A stretch of DNA of 39,759 bases from Deltaproteobacteria bacterium (GTDB lineage: Bacteria; Myxococcota; Myxococcia; Myxococcales; SZAS-1). Below the pieces are notes generated by a model. It was given only the letters and a program-made list of their open reading frames with translations, ran no database searches and had not been told where the DNA came from. Each line of letters opens with the position of its first letter. Position 1 is the first letter of the stretch. The stretch spans positions 1-39,759 of the forward strand of contig JAFEBB010000069.1 in NCBI GenBank assembly GCA_018266075.1. Direction: 5' to 3'. The translations under genes and the position numbers were made by a program. Below, in pieces: positions 25,376 to 31,343 of the stretch.

Positions 25376-27778
25376 ATGGCGCAAGCGGCGCTGGCCGCTC
25401 CCATCCGCTACGGCAAGTACACGCTGTTCGAGCGACTCGGCTCGGGCGGCATGGCCGAGGTGTTCCTCGCGCGGCAAGAGGGCGCCGGCGGCTTCAACAA
25501 GAAGGTCGTGGTCAAGCGCATCCTCAGCGAGTTCGCGGATGACAAGACCTTCGTCGAGCTCTTCCTGAACGAGGCGCACGTCGCGGCGCACCTCTCGCAT
25601 CCCAACGTCGTGCAGATCTTCGACATGGGCCAGGAGGGCGACACCTACTTCATCGCGATGGAGTACGTGCCCGGGCCGAACCTCTTGCAGCTCCTGCGGC
25701 ACGCGTCGCTCAAGGGCGATCTGCGGCCCACGGCGTTCGCGAAGATCGCGGCCGGCGTCGCGGAGGGCCTGAACTACGCGCACAACGCGAACGGGCCCGA
25801 CGGCACGCCGCTGGAGATCGTCCACCGCGACGTGAACCCGCCGAACATCATCGTCAGCCTCGACGGCGTGCCCAAGGTCTGCGACTTCGGCGTGGCCAAG
25901 AGCTCCGCCCGCGAGACAACTTCAGGAAGCCACCTCAAGGGCAAGCAGACGTACATGGCCCCTGAGCAGATCAAGGGCGAGAAGCTCGACGCGCGCGCCG
26001 ACATCTTCTCGCTCGGCGTGGTGCTCTTCGAGACCACGACCGGCAAGCGGCTCTTCAAGCGCGACTCCGAGCTCGCGGTGCTGAACGCGGTGCTCTCGGA
26101 TCCCATCCCGCGGCCGATGAGCATCGTGCCCGGCTATCCGTCGCGGCTCGACGAGATCATCATGTGGTGCCTGGAGCGCGATCGCAACCGGCGCTGCCCC
26201 GACGCGCGCACGCTCAACGACGCGCTCGAGGAGTACCTGCGCAAAGATCCCGCGGGCTACATGACGCCGGGCGCGCTGGGCGAGTGGGTGAAGTCGATCG
26301 TCCCGCCCGAGGAACAGAAGTCGTACCTCGGCACCGGGACCGGCGGCACGGGCAGCTTCCCGCGGCCGTCGACCAGCAGCCGCCCCTCGGCGCGCAAAGC
26401 AGGCAGCTCGCCCGGCACCGGCCCCGGCGGAAGCAAGCCGAGCACCGCGCGGCCGAACACCGCGCCGCCGCCGCTGGGCGACATCTCGGTGCCGATCAGC
26501 ATCTCGAAGTCGAAGCCGCGCATCGAGTCGCAGACCGAGCCGTTCACGCTGCCCGGCGGCGGCATCAAGGTGCCCTGGAAGTGGATCGCGCTCGGCGCAG
26601 GCGTGCTCGCGGGCGCAGGCGGCATCGTGGTCCTCGGCAGCCGATCGACGCCGGTCGCACCGGCCCCCGCGCGCGTCGCCGCCGCTCCCGCTCCCGCAGC
26701 AGCGCCGGCAGAGCCCGCGCGCTCCGCCGAGGACGACGCCCGCTTCTACACCGACGAAGCCCGCCGCCTCCTGGGCCAGCAGAAGTTCGGGCCCGCGGCC
26801 GAGCTCGTCGCCAAGGCCAAGCAGCTCGACCCGAAGGATCCCAAGACGAACGTCGCCATCGCCGAGCTGTCGGAAGAGGCCGAGGTGGGCGCGCGCATGG
26901 CGGCGGCCCAGCAGGCGCTCGCGGCCGGCGACATGGATCGCGCGACGAGCCTCGCGAAGCTCGTGCTCGACAAGGAGCCCACCGAGCCGCGCGCGCTGGC
27001 CCTGCTCCAGCAGGCGCACGCCAAGCTCGAGCCGGTCAAGCCCGTGCGCATGGGCCGTGGAACGCGCGCCGGCGCGGTGAGCGTGGAGGCGCCTTCGGGC
27101 TCGCGGGTGTACGTCGACGACGCGCCCGTGGGAGAAGCGCCGCTCGCGCGCTACCAGCTCGCCGCGGGCACGCACCGCATCGAGGTTCGCCGCGACGGCT
27201 ACCATCCCGAGATCCGCCAGGTCGAGATCCAGCCAGGGCGGACCGAGGCCATCTCCGCGAAGATGGACGCGCACGAGGAAGTGCAGGTCGCGCTCGCGCA
27301 GGCCAAGCCGGCGGCTGCCGCGGCTCCGGCGCCCGTGAAGCTCGCGGCTGCGGCGCCCGCTGCTGCCCCGGCCCCGACCGCCGTGGCTGCCGCCGCCGCG
27401 CCCAAGCCTCCGCCCGCTGCGGCTGCGCCGACTCCGACGCCCTCGCCTGCTCCCGCTTCCACGCCCGCGCCGCCGCCCGTCGTGGGCGAGCTCTTCAACG
27501 ACAAGATGACCCGGCCGTCGAAGCTCTCCGGCGACGATGTGCAGTACCCGGCCGATGCCGCCGCCGCTGGAGCCGAGGGCACGCTCATCGCCCAGTGCGC
27601 GATCAGCGAGGCCGGCAACGTGCACGACTGCAAGGTCATCAAGCACGTGCCGTTCATGGACGGGCCTGTCGTCGCCGCGCTCCAGAGCTGGCACATGAAG
27701 CCGGCCACGATCGACGGGAAAGCCGTCGCGCTGCGCAGCTACACCTTCCCGCCGATTCACATTTCAAAGCCCAAGTAG
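25376..27778 (+). CDS. Ser/Thr protein kinase with PEGA and TonB-like C-terminal domains
   Basis: An 800-residue protein. Residues 15-290 are a Hanks-type kinase: GSGGMAEVFLA, Lys47 in VVVKRI, HRDVNPPNII with catalytic Asp152, and DFGVAKS with Asp170. HRDVNP instead of HRDLKP is common in myxobacterial kinases. A Ser/Pro-rich linker, a membrane helix (about 400-422) and two or three TPR-like helices follow. A PEGA domain (about 562-635) and an Ala/Pro-rich stretch lead to a TonB-C-like domain (about 720-800, DVQYPADAAAAGAEGTLIAQCAI). The kinase is therefore cytoplasmic and the PEGA/TonB part periplasmic, suggesting a sensor of the envelope or one coupled to it. It stands alone after a promoter of its own. 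Confidence 0.92.
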   Translation: MAQAALAAPIRYGKYTLFERLGSGGMAEVFLARQEGAGGFNKKVVVKRILSEFADDKTFVELFLNEAHVAAHLSHPNVVQIFDMGQEGDTYFIAMEYVPGPNLLQLLRHASLKGDLRPTAFAKIAAGVAEGLNYAHNANGPDGTPLEIVHRDVNPPNIIVSLDGVPKVCDFGVAKSSARETTSGSHLKGKQTYMAPEQIKGEKLDARADIFSLGVVLFETTTGKRLFKRDSELAVLNAVLSDPIPRPMSIVPGYPSRLDEIIMWCLERDRNRRCPDARTLNDALEEYLRKDPAGYMTPGALGEWVKSIVPPEEQKSYLGTGTGGTGSFPRPSTSSRPSARKAGSSPGTGPGGSKPSTARPNTAPPPLGDISVPISISKSKPRIESQTEPFTLPGGGIKVPWKWIALGAGVLAGAGGIVVLGSRSTPVAPAPARVAAAPAPAAAPAEPARSAEDDARFYTDEARRLLGQQKFGPAAELVAKAKQLDPKDPKTNVAIAELSEEAEVGARMAAAQQALAAGDMDRATSLAKLVLDKEPTEPRALALLQQAHAKLEPVKPVRMGRGTRAGAVSVEAPSGSRVYVDDAPVGEAPLARYQLAAGTHRIEVRRDGYHPEIRQVEIQPGRTEAISAKMDAHEEVQVALAQAKPAAAAAPAPVKLAAAAPAAAPAPTAVAAAAAPKPPPAAAAPTPTPSPAPASTPAPPPVVGELFNDKMTRPSKLSGDDVQYPADAAAAGAEGTLIAQCAISEAGNVHDCKVIKHVPFMDGPVVAALQSWHMKPATIDGKAVALRSYTFPPIHISKPK

Positions 27779-27846
27779 CCGAGGCGCGCGCCCGAACGGC
27801 CGCGCGCATGCGGGAGCCGAAGTCGCCCGAGAGGGATGCCAGACTT

Positions 27847-27999
27847 TCCCTCGCACGCTCCGACGCCCGAGTGCTTTGGGAACAGTGACGGTGACTGGTG
27901 AACCGTGAACGTCCGGGTTGCCCGGCTGTCCCTCGCACGCTCGGGTGCCTGAGTGCTTGGTGAACCGTGATCGTGATCGTGACCGTGACGGCTGCTCAC
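27847..27999. repeat. Imperfect 82-base direct repeat
   Basis: TCCCTCGCACGCTC begins both copies (27847 and 27929) and GAGTGCTT follows at the same distance, then GTGA-type words. The second copy is cut into an inverted repeat. No coding potential is seen. Confidence 0.7.
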
Positions 28000-28034
28000 G
28001 GTTCACCAGTCACGATCACGGTTCCCCAAGCACT
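27952..28034. repeat. 25-bp inverted repeat, 24 of 25 matched
   Basis: Arms at 27952-27976 and 28010-28034 differ at a single base and enclose 33 bases. It could fold as a strong hairpin after the kinase transcript or be a mobile-like repeat. No T-tract follows the second arm. Confidence 0.75.
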
Positions 28035-28156
28035 TGCATCTGCTGGGTTGAAGTGGGGGAAACCCGGGCAACCCGAGCCCGCCGGCGCCCTCTCGGGCGA
28101 CGGCCCGCGCTCTCCGCTCTTCGGCCCCGCCGTCAGGGACGGCGGAGCTTGTGCGT

Positions 28157-28581: not shown

Positions 28582-28926
28582 ATGCTCGACTTCGCAGAAG
28601 AGTTCGTGAAGGCGTACGCCGAGCAATTGAAGACGGACGACGTGCTCGCGTGGAACTTCTACGCAGCCATGTGCAACGTCGGATGGGACCACCCCTCGTT
28701 GCCCGGATTTCCGAACAGCGACTGGGACGCGGCGTCGGGCGCGACGTTTCGGGTTGCCGCCGAAATCGTGGCTTCGGCTCGCGGCAAGGGCGAGGCCTAC
28801 ACCGACTGGTACAGCAGGGGCGCGAGCAAGCCAGGCGAGAGCCCTATAGGAACCGTCAACGAGAAGGTCCGCGCGCTGGCGCTGGCACTCGGATGGACCC
28901 CGGTGTTTCCACCGTCTCGTCATTGA
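28582..28926 (+). CDS. Small hypothetical protein next to rnpB
   Basis: A 114-residue frame starting MLDFAEEFVKAYAEQ, about 20 bases after the RNase P RNA. It has no signal peptide or membrane helix. Codon use is GC3-rich but softer than its neighbours. It is rich in Trp (five) and Ala, with ALALALGWTPVFPP at the end. No Shine-Dalgarno is clear. I recognise no family. It may be cotranscribed with rnpB, which would be unusual. Confidence 0.55.
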   Translation: MLDFAEEFVKAYAEQLKTDDVLAWNFYAAMCNVGWDHPSLPGFPNSDWDAASGATFRVAAEIVASARGKGEAYTDWYSRGASKPGESPIGTVNEKVRALALALGWTPVFPPSRH

Positions 28927-29015: not shown

Positions 29016-30092
29016 ATGCCCAAGAACGTGACCCGGACCGGCAGCCCGAACGCGGCCGGCGCCGACGCCGCCGCCAAGATCGACGCGGACTTCAAGAAGG
29101 CGTCCGCGAACGGCAAGATCAACACGGCCAGCGCCGACAAGCTCATCCGCCAGGCGCGCGACAACAAGCTCACCGAGTCCGAGGCCAACGCGTTCAAGGC
29201 CGACGCCCAGCGCTACGCCTCGAGCTTCGAGCCCGACGCCAAGCAGAAGATCGACACCTTCATCTCCGGCGAGATGCACAAGATCGAAGTCCTCGATCCC
29301 GGGCCGCACGCCGATCCGGGCGACATCAAGGATCCGGCCGTCCTCAAAGGCGACAAGGACAAGCTCGAGCAGCAGGACGTGAAGGGCGGCAAGCTCTTCA
29401 TCGGCGGCGTGAACGGCGCCGACCCGCAGCAGAACTACATCGGCGATTGCTACCTGATCGCGTCGATGAGCGCCGTCGCGCGCGAGAACCCCAAGGCCAT
29501 CTCCGACGCCTTCAAGCAGAACGCCGACGGCACGTACACCGTCCGCATCTTCAAGAAGGAAGGCTCCAAGTACGTCCCCCAGGAGTTCAAGATCGACGGC
29601 GATCTGCCCCGCAACGACTGGCAAGGCGCCGCCTACGCCAGCGACACCAACGGCAAGGAGCTCTGGCCCGCGCTCCTCGAGAAGGCCTTCGCCGCCCGCG
29701 CGGGCAGCTACGGCAAGATCGAAGCGGGGATCCCTGGCGACGCGATGGCGGCCATCACCGGCAAGCCCAGCACCGACATCGACATGCGCGGCAAGGGCGT
29801 GAACCCGGACGACGTCTTCAAGCAGATCGACGCCGCCGTGAAGGCCCACAAGCCCGCCACGGCCGTCACGCTCTCGGACGCGTCCGCCGCGAAGTACAAG
29901 GGCACCAACATCTACACGGACCACACGTACACCGTGTACGGCACGAGCGTCGAAAACGGCTTGAAGTACGTGCAGCTCCGCAACCCCTGGGGCGAGAGCG
30001 AGCCCGCGAACAACGGCCCCGACGACGGCATCTTCAAGCTACCGCTCGACCAGTTCATGAGCCTGTTCTGCGGCGTCTCCATCAACGGCTAG
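29016..30092 (+). CDS. Calpain-like cysteine peptidase (family C2)
   Basis: The protein has 358 residues from ATG 29016 (GGGAGA upstream). It lacks a signal peptide. The calpain catalytic triad is complete: Cys145 in NYIGDCYLIASMSA, His303 in TDHTYTVYG and Asn323 in LRNPWGESE. Residues 1-125 are a helical N-terminal domain rich in Lys, Asp and Ala, unlike animal calpains. Bacterial C2 peptidases are sporadic and their roles mostly unknown. The next gene starts 12 bases downstream and encodes a second peptidase-type protein, so the two probably act in one context. Confidence 0.88.
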   Translation: MPKNVTRTGSPNAAGADAAAKIDADFKKASANGKINTASADKLIRQARDNKLTESEANAFKADAQRYASSFEPDAKQKIDTFISGEMHKIEVLDPGPHADPGDIKDPAVLKGDKDKLEQQDVKGGKLFIGGVNGADPQQNYIGDCYLIASMSAVARENPKAISDAFKQNADGTYTVRIFKKEGSKYVPQEFKIDGDLPRNDWQGAAYASDTNGKELWPALLEKAFAARAGSYGKIEAGIPGDAMAAITGKPSTDIDMRGKGVNPDDVFKQIDAAVKAHKPATAVTLSDASAAKYKGTNIYTDHTYTVYGTSVENGLKYVQLRNPWGESEPANNGPDDGIFKLPLDQFMSLFCGVSING

Positions 30093-30104
30093 CCGAGGAC
30101 TTCC

Positions 30105-31343
30105 ATGACCGTCAGCCGTCTGCAGACGCAGGTGAAGACGCTCACCGCCCAGGGCCACAAGCTCTCGACGGATGACGTCCGCAAGCTCGTCGCCACCGCC
30201 AAGGACGACGGCAAGGTGGGCGTGAACGAGCTCAAGTTCCTCCAGGGCCTCTCGAAGGACCTCTTCGCGCCCGGCGCCCAGGACGACCTCACGACCATGC
30301 TCGGCGCCACCCAGGCGCAGGCCTACGTCGACGTCAGCACGCCGACGCAGACCGAGGTCAGCAAGGCCAGCAAGACCGGCGCTCCGGGCGTCACGCTGCA
30401 GGTCGAGGACGGCACGGGTCAGCTCACGGCGAACAGCTTCTGGCTCGCGGGAAAGGCGACGGCTTCGGGTCCGGTCGAGGTCGATGTCGACGGCAAGAAG
30501 ATCACCGTCCAGGCCAAGAAGGGCGACAACGCGGCGGCGATTGCGCAAAAGCTCTCGGCGGCGCTGCCCAAGCCGTACGAGGCCAACATCAACGCGGGCT
30601 TCTCGGACGGCCGCGCGTCGCTCCAGATCTTCCGGATGGTCCCGATTCCGCCCGCGCTCGTGAAGCCGGTGCAGGACGGCAAGTCGCCGCCGGTCAAAGT
30701 CCTCATCACCGGCTACGGCAAGTTCGCCAACTTCGCCACGGACAACGACAACCCCGCCTGGCAGCTCGCGCAGAAGGCCGCGCAGAAGGCGTATCCGGGC
30801 GCGCAGGTGCAGGCCGTGCTCTTGCCCGTCGAGTGGAACAAGGTCGACGACTTCGCTCGCACCGTGAAGGACACCTACAAGCCCGACGTGATCATCAACC
30901 TGGGCGCCGGGCCGCACGGGCTCGAGGTCTGGGCGCAGAACGCGACCGACGGCGAGGACGCTGCGGGCCAGAATCACACGGGCCCCGTCGACGCGAGCGG
31001 GCCGGACTTCGAGCAGAGCACCCTGCCCGTCCAAAAGATCGAGACCGCGCTGAACAAGGTCGAGGATCCGAAGAACGGCGGCACGCTCGGGCTGCACGCG
31101 CCGGCGCAGGGCACGTTCGATCAACGCCTGGCCGACGCCAAGCAGTTCCAGATCGACGCACAGAATACATATCTTTGTAATTATCTAAATTATCGAATGC
31201 TCGAGACCACGCGCGGCTCGGGCATCATGAGCGGCTTCATCCACGTGGACGACACCACGTCGCCGCAAGAGCTGGAGACGGTGATCAACACCGCCGTCCG
31301 CGCCAAGCTGGAAGAGCGCGCCGCGTCCAAGCCGACTGCGTAG
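30105..31343 (+). CDS. Pyroglutamyl-peptidase-like (C15 family) protein with N-terminal extension
   Basis: A 412-residue protein. The C-terminal half from about residue 200 (VKVLITGYGKF, NPAWQLAQKAAQ) follows the pyroglutamyl peptidase I order. The presumed catalytic residues are Glu274 (GLEVWAQN), Cys358 (TYLCNYLNY) and His380 (GFIHVDD). C15 enzymes cut N-terminal pyroglutamate from peptides and are usually about 215 residues. Here about 200 residues are added in front, with short helical KLSTDDVRKLVATAKDDGKVGVNELKFL resembling an EF-hand-like stretch and a strand-rich middle. The catalytic Cys lies in an abrupt island of A/T-ending codons (31164-31199). It follows the calpain gene by 12 bases. 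Whether it is active is unproven. Confidence 0.75.
   Translation: MTVSRLQTQVKTLTAQGHKLSTDDVRKLVATAKDDGKVGVNELKFLQGLSKDLFAPGAQDDLTTMLGATQAQAYVDVSTPTQTEVSKASKTGAPGVTLQVEDGTGQLTANSFWLAGKATASGPVEVDVDGKKITVQAKKGDNAAAIAQKLSAALPKPYEANINAGFSDGRASLQIFRMVPIPPALVKPVQDGKSPPVKVLITGYGKFANFATDNDNPAWQLAQKAAQKAYPGAQVQAVLLPVEWNKVDDFARTVKDTYKPDVIINLGAGPHGLEVWAQNATDGEDAAGQNHTGPVDASGPDFEQSTLPVQKIETALNKVEDPKNGGTLGLHAPAQGTFDQRLADAKQFQIDAQNTYLCNYLNYRMLETTRGSGIMSGFIHVDDTTSPQELETVINTAVRAKLEERAASKPTA

Follow-up and report, generated by a model that had tools for sequence, protein, structure and literature searches.

A set of proteins in Myxococcota carries a homologous helical module joined to one of several unrelated C-terminal domains, which are mostly enzymes with a catalytic cysteine. 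Two members of this set are encoded by neighbouring genes in the stretch of DNA analysed here (39,759 nucleotides in its entirety, referred to as the window): a calpain-like cysteine peptidase of family C2, and a protein with the fold of pyroglutamyl peptidases, family C15. The initial annotation of this DNA described the two peptidases as a unit and did not include the module which they have in common. The module is unnamed, and it is the more interesting content of the locus than the peptidase pair itself.

The two genes and their products

The two open reading frames are separated by 12 bases, as had been proposed, and each is preceded by a plausible ribosome-binding motif (Table 1). Both are conserved coding genes, as the alignments of their families show (20 calpains, 18 C15-like sequences), and, judging from the arrangement of the sequence, they are likely to be co-transcribed.

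Table 1. Positions of features of the calpain/C15-like locus (numbered within the window) and of a protein encoded downstream in relatives (numbered within the respective loci)
Feature	Position	Strand	Basis or remark
Calpain-like (C2) cysteine peptidase gene	29016..30092	+	ATG at 29016, TAG at 30092, 358 aa
Calpain N-terminal helical module, ~residues 20-85	29073..29270	+	calpain-N-terminus profile match, E 4e-21
Calpain catalytic domain, residues 126-329	29391..30002	+	Pfam match
Calpain Gln139 codon, oxyanion-hole position	29430..29432	+	invariant, 20 homologues
Calpain Cys145 codon, nucleophile	29448..29450	+	invariant, 20 homologues
Calpain His303 codon	29922..29924	+	invariant, 20 homologues
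Calpain Asn323 codon, RNPWG motif	29982..29984	+	invariant, 20 homologues
Intergenic gap, 12 bp, with GAGG ribosome-binding-like motif	30093..30104	+	read from sequence
C15-like (pyroglutamyl-peptidase fold) gene	30105..31343	+	ATG at 30105, stop at 31343, 412 aa
C15-like N-terminal helical module, residues 1-68	30105..30308	+	module profile matches, AlphaFold2 model
C15-like middle beta domain, ~residues 95-180	30387..30644	+	AlphaFold2 model; very weak Flagellin_IN resemblance
C15 catalytic domain, residues 197-407	30693..31325	+	VIA Z 22.2 to Pyrococcus Pcp 2df5
C15-like Glu274 codon	30924..30926	+	invariant, 18 homologues
C15-like Cys358 codon, nucleophile, within patch of A/T-ending codons	31176..31178	+	invariant, 18 homologues
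C15-like His380 codon	31242..31244	+	invariant, 18 homologues
~172-aa downstream protein	L047:10548-11075; L049:9378-9992; L054:10389-10904; L055:8462-8983		

The calpain matches Peptidase_C2 (PF00648) in Pfam with an E-value of 2e-27 and 96.4 bits, the curated cut-off being 23.8, and solved calpains are the Foldseek matches of its AlphaFold2 model (best E 2e-17; pLDDT of the two full-length models, 82 and 73). The calpain triad, which the initial annotation had called complete, is Cys145/His303/Asn323; all three residues, as well as Gln139, are invariant in the alignment of 20 homologues. Over most of its length the protein is 49-52% identical to its orthologues in genus g28. No phage record contains it, and phage carriage was rejected. 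With the bacterial calpains of family C2 (PMC4631099) it shares the Peptidase_C2 fold, the Cys/His/Asn triad and the lack of a signal peptide; it differs from them in having an N-terminal helical module that lies outside Pfam, and in belonging to a lineage-expanded group, with one to nine calpain matches per genome. Hydropathy revealed no signal-like segment in either protein of the pair, which agrees with the initial annotation. For the calpain, this is uninformative by itself, because 63 of 66 bacterial calpains have no signal peptide (PMC4631099). The window's genome also encodes a calpain of 610 amino acids (L138:1027-2859), whose N-terminus is module-like and divergent and whose catalytic domain is preceded by an insertion.

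The second protein scores above the curated Pfam cut-off for Peptidase_C15 (PF01470; E 2e-14), and solved pyroglutamyl peptidases are the Foldseek matches of its AlphaFold2 model (E 1e-12). Comparison of the model with Pyrococcus Pcp (2df5) gave a VIA Z of 22.2 and an rmsd of 2.1 Å over 183 residues, and Glu274, Cys358 and His380 are invariant in an alignment of 18 homologues; the C15 fold and the C15 residues attributed to this gene were therefore both borne out. The extension of 200 residues reported for it corresponds to residues 1-195, and consists of the helical module and a beta domain. Thus the protein has in common with pyroglutamyl peptidase I (C15, Pcp) the fold, the Glu/Cys/His residues, and the motifs TG[FY]xxF and NP, whereas the N-terminal extension of about 195 residues and inserts between the Glu and the Cys set it apart. 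Its score against TIGR00504, the pyroglutamyl-peptidase I equivalog, is 60.7 bits, far below the cut-off of 201.75, so the protein is classed as having the C15 fold only, not as a pyroglutamyl peptidase I, and a pyroglutamate substrate is not to be assumed for it. The middle beta domain, which resembles Flagellin_IN only very weakly (E 0.045, a match that falls short of the cut-off), recurs in other short open reading frames of relatives. Plasmid carriage of the gene was rejected: the plasmid matches are ordinary pcp genes that cover half the protein.

The active-site Cys motif of the C15-like protein is encoded by a patch of codons ending in A or T: all 11 codons from 354 to 364 (31164-31196) do so, in a gene with a GC3 of 0.915, and the 42-nucleotide stretch 31160-31201 has the lowest G+C in the window. 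The patch is absent from the six C15-like homologues checked, the 42-nucleotide stretch was searched for elsewhere and not found, and no unusual folding of it was seen. Possible explanations are a patch introduced in assembly, a very short conversion tract and clustered rare codons.

Upstream of the calpain, by 90 bp, is a possible gene for 114 amino acids (28582-28926), which has no Pfam match and no relatives in 145 genomes of the order. Positions 25376-27778 encode a fusion of a Ser/Thr kinase with PEGA and TonB_C domains, and 3′ of the kinase gene is a repeat element (27833-28075) comprising two direct copies of 62 nucleotides and nested inverted repeats of 25-46 nucleotides.

The N-terminal module and its distribution

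The N-termini of the two proteins are homologous (hhalign probability 98%, E 7e-14). A profile of calpain N-termini finds the N-terminus of the C15-like protein of the same genome with an E-value of 3e-6, and a profile of more diverse modules (A7, an alignment of 33 members) matches it with an E-value of 3.5e-16. In the AlphaFold2 models of both proteins the module comprises about 70 residues and four helices, at residues 13-29, 37-50, 54-66 and 73-90 of the calpain (pLDDT mostly 80-97) and at residues 3-13, 22-32, 40-47 and 58-69 of the C15-like protein. Its pattern is roughly I..x..AxxDgkITxxEVxxLIxxAKxdGxVtxxEkxxLxxLL..hxdkFxxxAxxxLxxFL, and it is often followed by a Pro-rich linker before the C-terminal domain. 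Searches of Pfam with 19 and 33 module sequences gave only marginal E-values for a family covering the module, with TerB, DUF533 and Dockerin as weak leads, and no description of the module was found in the open-licence literature.

The A7 profile detects the module in 48 of 195 Myxococcota genomes, classes other than that of the window included, at one to twelve copies in each. The window's genome has four copies: those of the calpain and the C15-like protein, one in a second calpain (C26) and one in a peptidoglycan-binding protein (C47). An ATP synthase alpha subunit of the same genome (C29) was rejected as a false positive of the profile.

In total, 126 distinct module proteins were collected. 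Four groups account for 90 of them, i.e., calpains (30), clan-CD-like proteins (23), transglutaminase-elicitor-like proteins (19) and C15-like proteins (18), where the counts for calpains and C15-like proteins are inflated by the collection having begun with searches for those two; the others form about 20 smaller groups, including PLD+CBM20, PG_binding_1 and fn3 proteins. The transglutaminase-elicitor-like proteins belong to PF16683 and have the motif WWGSCDK. The clan-CD-like proteins are assigned by motif only, from an invariant pattern, G-H-[SA]...C-x-G, that is typical of clan-CD peptidases, of which the His and the Cys are kept in 22/22 aligned sequences. The catalytic part of this family (L071, L111, L178, L182 and others) has no Pfam match and, on the basis of the motif, these proteins are possibly a new family of caspase-like peptidases.

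The Pfam domains found on module proteins include TGase_elicitor, PLDc_2, CBM_20, PG_binding_1, fn3, P_proprotein and TSP3_bac, most of which are typical of secreted proteins; the proprotein convertase P-domain and the TSP3 repeat were each found on one protein. The module itself can be repeated, up to four times in a single protein (L126). None of 97 module proteins examined has a hydrophobic N-terminal segment, and a cleavable Sec/Tat signal was accordingly rejected for these 97.

Adjacency and co-occurrence of the two genes

The C15-like family in its full-length form, which is essentially single-copy, was found in 21 Myxococcales genomes including that of the window (in some as fragments), the relatives being in family f3; the window's genome is the sole sampled member of its own family. 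Calpain matches are present in 21/21 of these genomes as against 49/145 overall, a co-occurrence at the level of the genome that tracks phylogeny. The window's genome is the only one in which the two genes were seen to be adjacent. For 16 relatives the neighbourhood of the C15-like gene was read, over some 1.5 to 10 kb to either side as far as the contigs reach, and it contains no calpain; the surroundings of the three closest calpains likewise contain no C15-like gene. Thus, when the co-occurrence of C2 and C15-like genes was checked, as the initial annotation had suggested, the two were found in the same genomes but not next to each other in the relatives read. The proposal of a functional two-peptidase unit is not supported, since in these 16 relatives the genes are not conserved together, and a conserved C2-C15 operon in several lineages was rejected for the same reason.

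The pair is probably two module genes that came to be neighbours locally rather than an ancestral two-enzyme machine. Tandem module genes elsewhere are pairs of the same family wherever both genes could be read, namely calpain-calpain (G065, G068) and transglutaminase-transglutaminase (G138); in one further tandem (G143) the second module gene is cut by the end of the contig. Among the tandems seen so far, the window's pair is the sole example of mixed families.

In several relatives, and not in the window, the C15-like gene is followed immediately by a gene for a conserved protein of about 172 amino acids with a C-terminal hydrophobic segment (Table 1). The analysis of neighbour conservation was confounded by antisense open reading frames in DNA of high G+C, and this small gene, resembling one for a membrane protein, was the only one to emerge from it, in some of the relatives.

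Possible roles of the module

A non-catalytic N-terminal domain that is common to many unrelated C-terminal domains is characteristic of a tag for sorting or recruitment, and the extracellular-type accessory domains and the lytic types of enzyme favour a destination outside the cell. The same accessory domains, being on related module proteins, make an intracellular location of the pair uncertain, although the clearest of them sit on proteins other than the window's calpain and C15-like protein. Our preferred reading, put forward tentatively, is that the module may be a non-catalytic sorting or docking domain through which degradative enzymes without a leader reach a common destination. This would most likely be the cell exterior, or else vesicles or prey, and the route would be neither Sec/Tat nor T6SS/eCIS; on arrival, the calpain would make internal cuts in proteins, and the N-terminal residues of peptides would be the target of the C15-like enzyme.

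The T6SS sheath gene (TssC/VipB) is absent from the window's genome and present in 2/29 module genomes of the order, and this anti-correlation led us to reject the module as a T6SS tag. Likewise, Pvc16_N, the marker for eCIS, is missing from the window's genome and occurs in 4/29 module genomes of the order, and the module proteins were rejected as eCIS cargo. The T6SS marker domains RIX (PMC10435454) and WHIX (PMC12135965) resemble the module in being non-catalytic domains common to leaderless proteins with diverse C-termini, but the sheath gene is missing here and from nearly all module genomes of the order. A bolder reading, which we consider rather unlikely, is that the module marks leaderless hydrolases for a delivery route not described so far, found throughout Myxococcota, independent of Sec, T6SS and eCIS, and with a cargo of mostly cysteine enzymes (calpain, caspase-like, C15-like, transglutaminase, PLD).

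Counting against export are the position of the clearest extracellular-type domains on other module proteins and the normally cytosolic location of C15 peptidases. Also against it, modules like the effector-associated domains (EADs) are known to occur with peptidases inside cells (Kaur et al. 2020, PMC7159879). EADs are both the closest known concept to the module and the main rival reading, according to which the module is an EAD-like domain for homotypic recruitment and the enzymes act within the cell, as effectors of a regulated system for conflict or cell death in multicellular bacteria. Like the EADs of Kaur et al., the module is a small all-helical domain, N-terminal on several peptidase-type proteins per genome, clan-CD-like ones included, in up to 12 copies and often in multicellular bacteria, which fits the published architecture rules; the absence of signal peptides from both proteins of the window also fits. 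We nevertheless consider this reading unlikely: a fusion to a STAND, vWA, MoxR or GTPase core was recognisable in 0/126 module proteins, and none to a VMAP, iSTAND, GAP1 or Ubl core was found among the same proteins or the Pfam matches, the sampling being incomplete; P-loop-like patterns occur in only 3/126, inside the calpain and PG-binding groups; no EAD family is among the best 25 Pfam families listed for the 19 and 33 module sequences; and partners such as CBM20, fn3, the P-domain and peptidoglycan-binding domains, which are of extracellular type, fit it poorly.

Perhaps, instead, the enzyme is controlled by its module, which would then be a prodomain of EF-hand- or TerB-like type with an autoinhibitory or regulatory function. 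Its place ahead of the catalytic-cysteine domain in most families found, the weak similarity to TerB, DUF533 and Dockerin, and a helix-loop-helix with a DG-x-[IV] loop in the calpain model are all in keeping with this; yet the module also stands ahead of unrelated folds and of fn3 or repeat proteins that are not enzymes, it is repeated up to four times in L126, and a complete set of EF-hand ligands was not seen by eye. We consider a prodomain unlikely. Least probable is that these are ordinary intracellular housekeeping peptidases, neighbours by chance, with the module as a passive stability domain. We hold this to be very unlikely, despite the lack of conservation of the pair and the single copy of the C15-like gene in its clade, as expected of a housekeeping gene, since the module occurs with a wide range of unrelated C-terminal domains, has multiplied and is unevenly distributed within the phylum, and is attached here to a C15-like protein so far under the pyroglutamyl-peptidase I equivalog cut-off.

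The pairing of the two genes is a local curiosity. The module, by comparison, unites calpain, C15-like, clan-CD-like, transglutaminase-elicitor-like and PLD enzymes into a single repertoire bearing one tag, in bacteria that are predatory and often multicellular; to our knowledge, these enzymes have never been grouped together before. Should export or recruitment be what the module directs, it would provide a sequence handle for lytic proteins that are missed by secretome predictions based on signal peptides, and a place to search for the machine that is still missing. The largely obscure role of bacterial calpains would also gain a biological context that can be tested.
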